In this document: one piece after another, positions 55,171 to 59,249 of the stretch
Numbering within the stretch: position 1 is the stretch's first letter
How the letters are laid out: the number at the start of each line of letters is the position of its first letter
NCBI GenBank assembly: GCA_021325435.1
Contig: JAJPHE010000135.1
Span: 1 to 64,000, forward strand
DNA length: 64,000 nt
Reading direction: 5' to 3'
Source: Actinomycetota bacterium
GTDB taxonomy: Bacteria > Actinomycetota > Acidimicrobiia > Acidimicrobiales > JAJPHE01
Notes under the pieces: model-generated
Seen by the model: the letters and a program-made list of their open reading frames with translations, nothing else
What the model was told of the DNA's origin: nothing
The model's database searches: none
Program-made: the position numbers and the translations under genes

Positions 55171-56223
55171 TCAGCGCAGCGGCGGCGGCTCGCCCGGCCG
55201 GGCCGGAGCGACCGCCTGCTCGGGGTCGACGAAGGAAGGATCGTCGTAGAGGGTGAGCCGACGCCGCCGGGTGGCGGACAGGGTCACCGGGAACAGGGCG
55301 CTGCCGGGCACGAAGGTCTCGTAGAGCAGGACGAGAAGGGCGACGTCGAGGATGGCCCGCTCGGCCCGGCTGAGGTGGTGGATCACGCTGGTGTTCTGGG
55401 GGGCGAAGTTGCCGCCGCTCGGGAACGACGCTGTCCCCCGGGGGGCGGGCGCCGCCGACGGCGCCGACAGGCTCGGGGTCGACGGGGCCGGCAGGGCCGG
55501 GGCCGACTCCGCCGGCGCGCTCAACGAGAACGGGCTCGACTGCTGCTGCAGGGCGTTCTCGAAGGCGGTGGTGGGGGTGGCGACCGGGGCGGACTCCGGT
55601 GCCGGTGCCGGCGCTGGAGGCGGGGTGGTGACGGCCAGGGCGCTCGGGTCGATCCGTTCGAAGGTCACGTCCACGGTGGAGGACGGGGCGTTGACCGACG
55701 ACGGCAGGGCGACCCCGGACCCGCCGCCCAGGCTCTGGGGGATGAGCACCACGCTCACCAGCCCCGACTGGGAGGCCAGCGGCCCGAGGTCGAAGCTGAG
55801 CTTCTTGCCGTCGGGGCTGGGCTTGCCGGCCGCCTGGGCCCCCGAGCAGTTGGGCTGGGGGCGCTGGGCCCACGGGCCGCCGGCGGCCGGCTGCCACGGG
55901 GATCCGGCCGGGCAGGCGATCACCGCCGGGTTGGCGGATTGGGTCTGGTGGATGGTGAGGGTGAGGACCGGGGACGACTCGCCCGGCTGCAGCTGGAACT
56001 GGACGGCCGACTCGGCCTGGGTGCCGCTCGGGTCCCCGGCCACCCAGAGACCGCCGTCGGGCACGTCCTGTTTCGGGGTGAGGCCGTTGGACTGCCCCGA
56101 CCACCACCAGCCCGTGGCCAGCCCGGTGGCCGCCCGGGCGCTGCCCGCCACCACCAGGTAGGCGCCGATCACCGTCGCCCCGGCCAGGCAGGCGAGCCGC
56201 CGGGCTGGCCCCCGCCGGCTCAC
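55171..56223 (-). CDS. Exported membrane-anchored protein, last gene of transporter locus 2
   Basis: A 350-residue protein with an N-terminal signal (RLACLAGATVIGAYLVVAGS). An outside beta domain follows (about 35-185; TGLATGWWWSGQSNGLTP, VQFQLQPGESSPVLTLTIHQ). A long Pro/Ala/Ser linker (about 190-280) leads to a C-terminal membrane segment (AERAILDVALLVLLYETFVP) and a short cytosolic tail. The family is unknown. The GTG overlaps the stop of the MFS-LivF-LivG gene by four bases, so it belongs to the transporter operon and may sense or present substrate. Confidence 0.8.
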   Translation of the reverse strand: MSRRGPARRLACLAGATVIGAYLVVAGSARAATGLATGWWWSGQSNGLTPKQDVPDGGLWVAGDPSGTQAESAVQFQLQPGESSPVLTLTIHQTQSANPAVIACPAGSPWQPAAGGPWAQRPQPNCSGAQAAGKPSPDGKKLSFDLGPLASQSGLVSVVLIPQSLGGGSGVALPSSVNAPSSTVDVTFERIDPSALAVTTPPPAPAPAPESAPVATPTTAFENALQQQSSPFSLSAPAESAPALPAPSTPSLSAPSAAPAPRGTASFPSGGNFAPQNTSVIHHLSRAERAILDVALLVLLYETFVPGSALFPVTLSATRRRRLTLYDDPSFVDPEQAVAPARPGEPPPLR

Positions 56224-59200
56224 TCCTTCTTCTTGGCCCGGGTCGACGCGCTGGCCCTCCGCCGGGGCTGGGTCGCCCGGCGCTCCCCGGAGCGGGCGAT
56301 GATGTCCTCGTCCGTTCCGAGGTAGGAGGCGACCACCTGCGGGTGGTTGACCACCTCGTCCGGGGTGCCCTCGGCCACGACCGACCCCAGCTCGAGGGCG
56401 ACCATGGTGTCGGCGATGGCGGTCACCAGCGGCATGTCGTGCTCGATGACGAGCAGGCTGCAGCCGACCTCCTGCTGGATGCGGCGCAGCAGGGGACCGA
56501 GGGCCTCCGTCTCGCGCTGGGCGATGCCGGAGCTGGGCTCGTCGAGGATGAGCACCTTGGGGCGGTGGGCGATCGACATGGCCAGGTCGACGATGCGCCG
56601 GCTGCCGGTCGACAGCTCCGACACGAACTTGTTGCGGAAGGCGCCGAGGCCGAGCAGCTCGATGAGGTCGTGCACCTGCCAGGCGGCGTCGGCCTCGGCG
56701 TCGAGGACGGCGGGCAGGGCCATGGCCGCCGCCACCGGGTCGCGCACCTTCAGGTGGCGCTCGAGCCCGACGGCGATGTTCTCGGCGACCGTCAGCGAGG
56801 GGAACAGGCGGGCGTCCTGGAAGGACCGGCCCAGCCCGGCCCGGGCCCGGGCGTCGGGCGCCCAGCCGGTGATGTCCAGGTCCCCCAGCCACACCCGCCC
56901 GGCGCGGGCGGGGACGAAGCCGGAGATGGCGTCGAAGATGGTGGTCTTGCCGGCGCCGTTGGGGCCGATGAGGCCGAGGATCTCGCCTTCGTGGAGGACG
57001 AACGAGGCGTCGTCGACGGCGCGGATGCCGCCGAACTGGACGACCAGCCCCTCCACCCGCAGGGCGGGGGCGGCGGCGAGAACCCGCTGGTGGCGCTCCT
57101 CGCGCTCGGCCTTGCGGCGCCGCTCCTCGGCCGCGGTTTGGCGGGCGCCGTTGCCTCCGGTGTCGACGCCGGTCGCCGAGGCGGCCCCCTCGAGGAACAC
57201 CGAGCGGAGGATGTCGCCCCGCTCGAGCAGCTCGGCGGTGGGCCCGGTGAAGCGGACCTCGCCCTTCTCCATGAACACCGCCCGCTGGGCGAGGGTCAGG
57301 GCCACGTTGACTGACTGCTCCACCAGGATGACCGTGGTCCCCTGGGCGTGGATGGCCCGCACGATGTCGACCAGCTGGGACACGATGGTCGGCGCCAGCC
57401 CCAGGCTGAGCTCGTCGATCATGAGCAGCTTGGGCTTGGCGATGAAGGCCATGGCCAGGCCGAGCATCTGCTGCTCGCCACCGGACATGTTGCCGGCGAG
57501 GGTGTCGCCCCGCCGCCGCAGTACGGGGAAGTATTCGAGCATCTGGGCGGTGGCCCGCTTCACGTGGTCGGGGTCGTTGCGGTACATCCAGCCGGCGAGG
57601 CGCAGGCACTCGTTCACCGTCAGGGTCGGGAAGACGCTGCGCCCGCCGGGCATCTGCACGATGCCGGCCGACACCGACGCCTTGGCGTCGGCGTGGGTGA
57701 CGTCCTGGCCGTCGAAGAACACCGCCCCGCCCGACGGGTCGACCAGCCCGGATATGGCCTTAAGCAGGGTGGACTTGCCGGCGCCGTTGGTGCCGAGGAG
57801 GGCGATGATCTCCCCTTCGGTCACCTCGAGGTCCACGCCGAACAGGACCTGCACGGCGTCGTAGGCCACGTCGAGGGAGACGACCTTGAGGAGGGCCCGC
57901 TCCCCGGCCGACAGTCGCTGGCGGCGCAGCTCCACCTGGGTGTTGAGCACCCGCAGGGATTTGGTGGCGTCGTCGGTGACGTACTTGGCCGCCGAGGCCA
58001 GCACCAGCCCGCCGATCACCCAGTAGGGCAGCAGCACCGCCACGCCCCAGCGGATGCCGTCCTTGTCCGACACCGTGCCCGCCGGGGTGAACCCCCACAG
58101 GACCCACACCCCGGCCACCAGGAACAGCAGCCCGAAGCCGAACGACAGCGTCCTCACCCGGGCCGGCGACACCAGGGCCTGCACCGTGTAGAACGGCGAG
58201 TAGAAGATGCCGGCCACGAAGCTGGTGGCGAACCCGAGGATCAACGCCAGCGGCAGCACCGGGGCCGCCGCCACCAGGGCCAGGCCCACCCCCACCCCGA
58301 CGAGGGACAGCCCGGCCCGCCGCAGCGGCTCACCGAGCCCCTGGGCCAGCCAACGCCCCGTCCAGCGGCCGCCGGCGATGATGCCGGCGAAGATGAAAGC
58401 GGCGTTGGCCGCGGTGACCAGTCCCCGGGGCAGGTCGCCCAGGCCGTAGGCCCGCTTCAGGTAGAGGGGCAGGATGAAGGCCAGCGGTATGACCCCGGCG
58501 CCGATGAAGAACCAGGCGATGTACTGGCGGCGCAGCGTCTTCACCGCCCACAGGGTGCGGGCCGCCTCCTGGAACGGGACGGGCGGCTCCTTCTCCACCT
58601 CGGCCGCCGCCTCGGGGTCGTCGGTGCCGCCCCGGCGGGGCTCGCGCAGCCGCAGGGCGATGAAGGCGGTGATGAGGATCGGGAAGATGAGGACGACGAA
58701 CGCCGCCCGCCAGCCGGCCAGCGCCGAGGTGATGCCGGCCACCGCCGAGCCGACGATGGCGCCCAGCTGCACGGCGTTCTGGTGGGCGCTGTACACCCGG
58801 GGGCGTTGGTTGGGGTCGTAGTAGTCGGCCAGCAGCGAGTTGTGCACCGGGTCGTTCACCAGCTGGCCGACCCCGTTGCCGAAGCGCACCGCCACCAGCA
58901 GGGCGACGGTGCCGACGATGCCGGTCATGAGCGAGAAGACGCCGGCCAGCACGCCTCCGATCACGACCAGCCACGTCCGGGGCACCCGCTCCCCCAGGTA
59001 GCTGATGGGGATGGCCAGCCCGAGGACGAGGGTGAGGTTGCCCACCACGATGAGGCCGAACTTGTGGTCGGTCAGGTGGAAGACCCGCTCGATGGTGGGG
59101 GCGAGGACGTTGAAGGCGGCAGTGTCGAACTGGTCGAAGAAGTAGAGGGCGAACAGGACCCCGAGGGGGAACAGGGCGGCCCCGCCGGTGATGCCGGTCA

Positions 59201-59249
59201 GCCGGCGGCGGATCCCCGTGGGCTGCACGTCTTTGACGATGCTGGTCAC
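56220..59249 (-). CDS. MFS-LivF-LivG triple fusion, locus 2
   Basis: A 1009-residue protein. Residues 15-430 are a twelve-helix MFS carrier (SYLGERVPRTWLVVIGGVLA; LLADYYDPNQRPRVYSAHQN). LivF spans about 448-690 (Walker A LLGTNGAGKSTLLKAISGL near 484, signature NMSGGEQQMLGLA, Walker B MIDELSLGLAP). A basic helix (AEERRRKAEREERHQRVLAA) joins LivG at about 728-985 (Walker [20 protein letters not shown], signature [13 protein letters not shown], Walker [13 protein letters not shown]). The end is Arg/Lys-rich. The GTG overlaps the permease stop by four bases. Both ATPases of the importer and the carrier are thus one chain. Confidence 0.92.
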   Translation of the reverse strand: MTSIVKDVQPTGIRRRLTGITGGAALFPLGVLFALYFFDQFDTAAFNVLAPTIERVFHLTDHKFGLIVVGNLTLVLGLAIPISYLGERVPRTWLVVIGGVLAGVFSLMTGIVGTVALLVAVRFGNGVGQLVNDPVHNSLLADYYDPNQRPRVYSAHQNAVQLGAIVGSAVAGITSALAGWRAAFVVLIFPILITAFIALRLREPRRGGTDDPEAAAEVEKEPPVPFQEAARTLWAVKTLRRQYIAWFFIGAGVIPLAFILPLYLKRAYGLGDLPRGLVTAANAAFIFAGIIAGGRWTGRWLAQGLGEPLRRAGLSLVGVGVGLALVAAAPVLPLALILGFATSFVAGIFYSPFYTVQALVSPARVRTLSFGFGLLFLVAGVWVLWGFTPAGTVSDKDGIRWGVAVLLPYWVIGGLVLASAAKYVTDDATKSLRVLNTQVELRRQRLSAGERALLKVVSLDVAYDAVQVLFGVDLEVTEGEIIALLGTNGAGKSTLLKAISGLVDPSGGAVFFDGQDVTHADAKASVSAGIVQMPGGRSVFPTLTVNECLRLAGWMYRNDPDHVKRATAQMLEYFPVLRRRGDTLAGNMSGGEQQMLGLAMAFIAKPKLLMIDELSLGLAPTIVSQLVDIVRAIHAQGTTVILVEQSVNVALTLAQRAVFMEKGEVRFTGPTAELLERGDILRSVFLEGAASATGVDTGGNGARQTAAEERRRKAEREERHQRVLAAAPALRVEGLVVQFGGIRAVDDASFVLHEGEILGLIGPNGAGKTTIFDAISGFVPARAGRVWLGDLDITGWAPDARARAGLGRSFQDARLFPSLTVAENIAVGLERHLKVRDPVAAAMALPAVLDAEADAAWQVHDLIELLGLGAFRNKFVSELSTGSRRIVDLAMSIAHRPKVLILDEPSSGIAQRETEALGPLLRRIQQEVGCSLLVIEHDMPLVTAIADTMVALELGSVVAEGTPDEVVNHPQVVASYLGTDEDIIARSGERRATQPRRRASASTRAKKKE

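Follow-up and report, generated by a model that had tools for sequence, protein, structure and literature searches.

An MFS-LivF-LivG fusion conserved in ABC importer operons of Acidimicrobiia

ATP-binding cassette (ABC) importers of the LIV/HAAT type (LivKHMGF; TC 3.A.1.4) and the urea importer UrtABCDE share two BPD_transp_2 permease parts, LivF- and LivG-type ATPases, a BCA_ABC_TP_C tail and a binding protein encoded in the operon. Here we describe a related operon in a 64,000-nucleotide stretch of DNA (the window; contig JAJPHE010000135.1 of the Actinomycetota bacterium assembly GCA_021325435.1), which differs from both systems in that LivH is fused to LivM, LivF is fused to LivG, a major facilitator superfamily (MFS) domain is added, and an extra anchored secreted protein is present. 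The MFS, LivF and LivG parts form a single chain, called a triple below. Two importer ATPase domains likewise share one polypeptide in DppD and OppD of Mycobacterium tuberculosis (8wdb, 8j5s), but these belong to peptide importers without an MFS domain. The sensor kinase-MFS family (TC 2.A.1.34, listed in PMC3924187) also has an MFS carrier fused to a noncarrier functional domain, although the partner is a kinase there and the motor of a primary transporter here. With the Spinster lipid transporters (HnSpns, PDB 6e8j; Spns1; SPNS2; TC 2.A.1.49) the window MFS shares motif A, the Asp of transmembrane helix 1 (TM1) and the Arg of TM4, while it is without the TM4 proton-switch Glu, is fused to ABC ATPases and has low identity to them. 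A search of the open literature turned up no paper on an MFS-LivF or MFS-LivF-LivG fusion; subscription papers and database-only entries such as those of TCDB lay outside the search. The parts belong to known families; what appears new is their combination, its conservation and the lost proton switch.

Architecture and distribution of the triple fusion

The triple is encoded at 56220..59249 on the minus strand, as are all domains given below, with a GTG start at 59249 and a TGA stop at 56220; the plus strand at 56220-59249 does not encode it. As the preliminary description had claimed, one chain of 1009 residues holds all three parts. Pfam identifies MFS_1 at residues 32-374 (E 1.5e-37), two ABC_tran domains (E 1.5e-59 for the protein) and BCA_ABC_TP_C at the LivG end. 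From Pfam, residue counts and HnSpns (6e8j) as the best solved relative, the Spinster-like MFS domain was assigned to residues 16-440 (57930..59204). It is followed by a connector helix leading from TM12 to LivF (residues 421-447; 57909..57989), delimited by an AlphaFold2 model and length statistics, and by the LivF-type ATPase domain (residues 447-690; 57180..57911; Walker A at 486, Walker B at 608). Sequence, AlphaFold2 model and length statistics place the LivF-LivG linker, with a charged, basic helix, at residues 691-724 (57078..57179), ahead of the LivG-type ATPase domain (residues 725-985; 56295..57077; Walker A at 762, signature LSTG at 879, Walker B at 899). The basic helix previously proposed to join the parts is real and corresponds to this linker, which contains EERRRKAEREERHQR and in which AlphaFold2 models a helix at 706-725. 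The Walker motifs are intact, and when 51 triples of the family are aligned, the invariant columns include the ATPase motifs. The model of the full chain reached a mean confidence (pLDDT) of 89 and a predicted TM score (pTM) of 0.75, and the single-chain double ATPases DppD and OppD are among the nearest solved chains by fold. That the one-chain layout forces 1:1 pairing of LivF and LivG, as had been suggested, is plausible.

The best-scoring models for the isolated LivF part are UrtE/LivF and those for the isolated LivG part LivG/UrtD. Naming the chain UrtD/UrtE was rejected, because the whole chain passes both equivalog cutoffs merely by summing two ATPase domains. Alone, the two ATPase domains score below these cutoffs (193.7 of 285.8 and 202.4 of 304.1) and below the curated LivF/LivG equivalog cutoffs (178.6 of 441 and 209.5 of 362 bits), and are thus superfamily members and not the E. 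coli equivalog. Automatic naming of such double-ATPase fusions may mislead, as NCBIfam whole-protein scores exceed the UrtE and UrtD cutoffs.

It is vanishingly unlikely that assembly or annotation wrongly joined separate genes, even though the window's genome is a draft in 160 contigs. The G+C content at third codon positions is 0.95-1.00 in each 100-codon block of the open reading frame, both joints included, and there are no internal stops. Four full triples lie in this genome (contigs 94, 29, 43 and 77), together with one MFS-LivF plus LivH-LivM-LivG system (contig 126), one LivF-LivG system without MFS (contig 152) and one LivH-LivM-LivF-LivG single chain (contig 142). A scan of a named species collection gave 191 stretches with a relative of the MFS, and the best 80 of these contain 68 triples with the same three-domain order. 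Most records are metagenome-assembled genomes, yet single-contig genomes (G004, G008 and G056) carry a triple, which excludes mis-binning as a general cause. The repeated finding of this order, single-contig genomes included, also rules out chance. The fusion is thus confirmed at the DNA level and an artefact is ruled out, in agreement with the preliminary description; a conserved fusion in other genomes was looked for and found.

The 80 best loci are nearly all labelled Acidimicrobiia or unclassified Actinomycetota, including Candidatus Microthrix and the cultured Ilumatobacter nonamiensis. In a sample of relatives, 27 of 41 genomes matched at 1e-60, and in a phylum-wide sample 31 of 396 matched at 1e-90, both counts including MFS-less relatives that match through their ATPases; triples also occur outside the window's class. 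The join is widespread and old in one group of soil and water bacteria. Its two-chain form, MFS-LivF with LivH-LivM-LivG, reaches the Streptomycetaceae, where in Embleya sp. NBC_00888 MFS-LivF precedes LivH-LivM-LivG and a Peripla_BP_6 protein is encoded upstream (L161, 5740-11122); no other plasmid hit examined carried the fusion. No relative was found in phage records. Five loci (L089, L106, L100, L134 and L137) carry titles of Acidobacteria or Bifidobacterium breve but are Acidimicrobiia-like, and their labels or bins are probably wrong.

Motifs, connector and possible role of the MFS domain

HnSpns (profile E 9e-41) and then Spns1 are the best solved relatives of the MFS part, at low identity. 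In HnSpns, Asp41, Arg122 and Glu129 and an Asp87-Arg91-Asp142 relay control proton-driven gating, and the E129Q variant captures a protonated-like state (PMC9440201). A preprint on a mycobacterial Spns assigns a matching role to TM4 Glu126 (PMC13192786). Aligned with HnSpns, the window MFS has Gln129 at the TM4 proton-switch position, motif A as E87/R88/R91, and retains D42, R122 and D142. Among 100 other triples, D87 (Glu in the window) and R91 are present in all 100, D142 in 99, Arg122 in 94 and Asp41 in 92. Glu129, by contrast, has an equivalent in none of 132 other fused copies, which carry Lys (69), Arg (21), Gln (14) or otherwise neutral residues. The 100 triples account for Lys 58, Arg 20, Gln 8, Leu 7 and others, and the 32 MFS-LivF proteins, which are looser at Asp41 (16/32) and Arg122 (18/32), for Lys 11, Gln 6, Ser 5, Thr 5 and others. 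An unfused relative from Niveispirillum has Glu at this position.

The MFS directly precedes LivF in all 133 fused copies analysed, whether or not LivG is fused. Measured from D427 to L454, the spacing across this joint falls within 26-29 residues for 95 of 102 triples, with 27 in 80, and within 27-29 residues for 30 of 31 MFS-LivF proteins, whereas LivF-to-LivG spacing varies widely (standard deviation, 18 residues). This fits a first joint with a structural role and a second that does no more than tether. Maximum-likelihood distances among 33 complete triple systems correlate between the MFS and the binding protein at 0.89 (partial correlation, 0.73), LivHM at 0.73, LivF at 0.55 and LivG at 0.45; since distances between systems are mutually dependent, these values are descriptions and not tests. 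Within clades, the MFS tracks the binding protein and LivHM about equally (0.90 and 0.96; 0.80 and 0.78). Despite its covalent link to an ATPase, the MFS therefore evolves together with the parts that handle substrate. Four pairs have dS below 1; in three of them the ratio of nonsynonymous to synonymous substitution rates of the MFS is 0.03-0.06 and in the fourth 0.25, indicating purifying selection.

We propose, with a probability of about 50%, that the chain is the ATPase subunit of a LIV/HAAT-type ABC importer and that its Spinster-like MFS domain, with 12 transmembrane helices, serves that importer as an additional membrane subunit for substrate handling. The complex would consist of two membrane polypeptides, LivH-LivM and MFS-LivF-LivG, and a secreted binding protein, which would deliver the substrate to LivH-LivM for passage. 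LivF and LivG would hydrolyze ATP as a head-to-tail pair within one chain, and the MFS, its position or conformational state tied to LivF by the connector, would handle the same substrate family as the binding protein. With the proton switch lost and a connector of set length to LivF, we infer that the MFS is not run as a free proton antiporter. Several points weigh against this proposal. The MFS is dispensable, being absent from LivF-LivG and LivH-LivM-LivF-LivG relatives, some of them nested among the triples, and it is a separate gene in a few genomes. Within the window-type clade it tracks LivHM (0.96) slightly above the binding protein (0.90), the constant connector could partly reflect common descent, and a pTM of 0.75 leaves the relative placement of the MFS and the ATPases unfixed.

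The main rival, close to what the preliminary description had in mind and in our judgment doubtful, is an independent carrier, a uniporter or exchanger, for which the fusion does no more than secure equal dosage and co-location with the importer. It would account for the retention of motif A, D42, R122 and D142 in most triples, for purifying selection on the MFS, for stand-alone MFS genes nested among the fused ones (one of them beside an MFS-less single-chain importer), and for an MFS module that can be exchanged between systems. Against it stand the near-constant length of the first joint next to a second that varies, the absence of the proton switch from every fused copy, and the leak of the gradient that a freely working uniporter would presumably cause if it carried the importer's substrate. 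The next rival is a domain that transports nothing and docks or senses, anchoring LivF and the binding protein to the membrane. The missing TM4 switch, co-divergence of the MFS with binding protein and permease, and loss of the domain from related systems would all suit such a scaffold or regulator, but it is rather unlikely, given that the motif A charge relay and the TM1/TM4 charges are kept in most triples, which suggests that conformational cycling has been retained.

A bolder reading, improbable on present evidence, is that ATP-driven movements of LivF act through the fixed-length connector helix to drive or gate alternating access of the MFS, replacing the proton switch. Such a hybrid of secondary carrier and ABC motor would be a transporter class that we did not find described in the open literature. 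MFS carriers and ABC transporters count as distinct classes, each with its own energy source; a length-constrained MFS-ABC chain with a lost proton switch makes it testable whether an ABC motor can energize or gate an MFS fold, and offers a test of whether the two classes can work as one machine. Across the relatives, modules are found fused, split, exchanged and lost, as a natural series, and the findings suggest an uncharacterized machine with an anchored subunit as a route for some of the nutrients that Acidimicrobiia take up.

Locus 1 and the order of fusion and loss

The window contains a second system, locus 1, with an MFS-LivF fusion of 707 amino acids (41693..43816, minus strand) and a separate LivG of 396 amino acids (40506..41696, minus strand), whose GTG start at 41696 overlaps the MFS-LivF stop (GTGA) and has its own GGAGG-like site. 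A LivH-LivM permease fusion (43813..46146, minus strand) and a divergent gene for a predicted substrate-binding protein with a lipoprotein-like signal (46162..48117, plus strand) also belong to the locus. The same layout, including the divergent binding-protein gene, is found in G040 (L175), L066 and G027 (L201), of which L201 is identical to L066, so that these two are probably one genome.

Phylogenies of the MFS, LivF, LivG and LivHM parts were obtained by quick IQ-TREE searches with support from the Shimodaira-Hasegawa-like approximate likelihood ratio test (SH-aLRT) only; LivF and LivG trees were rooted with conventional LivF and LivG, and the later trees left out systems truncated at contig ends (L084, L089, L094, L113, L118 and L132). 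In the rooted trees, MFS-LivF/LivH-LivM-LivG systems branch below a clade of triples, LivF-LivG systems, LivHMFG chains and locus-1 types (SH-aLRT 96 for LivG; 83 for LivF), from which the joining of MFS to LivF is probably older than that of LivF to LivG. LivF-LivG systems fall into one clade with triples in the LivG (98) and LivHM (99) trees, so that repeated loss of the MFS is probable.

At locus 1 the parts do not share one history. In the MFS tree, locus 1 falls within the window-type triples (100), and the approximately unbiased (AU) test rejected a topology that keeps every triple separate from it (p 8e-4). For LivHM and LivG of locus 1, on the other hand, a placement with the window-type triples is rejected (AU p 0.007 and 0.0006), while LivF alone is uninformative on the placement (p 0.30-0.57). 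Between locus 1 and the window triple system, the MFS is 48% and LivHM 43% identical, compared with an MFS identity of 32-36% for other triples with LivHM at 40-44%. By these trees, locus 1 is a mosaic, its MFS being of the window-triple type and its permease and LivG not, an MFS module, possibly together with LivF, having been exchanged. A similar tree conflict was seen in L053. In the LivHM tree the locus-1 core falls outside the LivF-LivG-fused set (95), which LivG does not reject (p 0.08), and the separate LivG may thus be ancestral, the alternative being a plain split (fission) of a triple. The relatedness and the trees reject an independent second origin at locus 1, contrary to the recurrence first claimed. 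The two stages of fusion seen in the window by the preliminary description survive in part, as a probable order of events with MFS-LivF before LivF-LivG, but the conflict between MFS and permease/LivG means that locus 1 is not simply the earlier stage.

Several relatives lack the MFS or have it as a separate gene. LivH, LivM, LivF and LivG form one chain of ~1220-1270 residues without MFS in L044 (3573-7244, on contig 142 of the window's genome), L175 (4130-7924), L186, L205 and L206. The L044-type chain is a whole LIV importer core as one polypeptide. Divergent from such an importer in L202 is a stand-alone MFS of 471 residues (6962-8374, minus strand), which nests in the fused MFS on the tree and keeps a charged tail where LivF would come next. 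Another stand-alone MFS, on contig 28 of the window's genome (L204, 5522-7348, minus strand), is sister to the MFS of the contig-29 triple and has apparently been separated from its ATPases.

The operon and its neighbors

The triple is the third of four overlapping genes, all on the minus strand, in the order binding protein, LivH-LivM fusion, triple and anchored secreted protein. The LivH-LivM fusion (59246..61609; 787 amino acids) matches BPD_transp_2 (PF02653) in two stretches, and its stop overlaps the GTG start of the triple by 4 nucleotides. The operon shows the LIV/HAAT features of two BPD_transp_2 permease domains, two distinct ATPases with Walker A and B, and a BCA_ABC_TP_C tail. The predicted secreted substrate-binding protein (61590..63443; 617 amino acids), which has a Gly-rich N-terminal region, gave no significant Pfam match; the same holds for the window binding proteins in general, Peripla_BP_6 (PF13458) included. 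Beside MFS-LivF/LivH-LivM-LivG systems, four of the six binding proteins tested reach or nearly reach the PF13458 cutoff. Neighbors of these loci include CoA transferases, an enoyl-CoA hydratase and an amidohydrolase, a weak hint of organic acids as substrates.

The last gene (55171..56223) encodes a secreted, C-terminally anchored protein of 350 amino acids, the start of which overlaps the stop of the triple (GTGA). It has no Pfam match, a conserved GWW-type motif and a weak beta-rich model (pLDDT 59.5; best fold match only E 0.03). With a profile of this protein, relatives were found beside triples, MFS-less systems and two MFS-LivF/LivH-LivM-LivG systems; as MFS-less systems are among them, the protein goes with the ABC part and not with the MFS. 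Glycosyl hydrolases of families 99 and 39 are encoded near importer loci, at 25665-27491 (minus strand) and upstream of 63443 (L046, 8565-10037).

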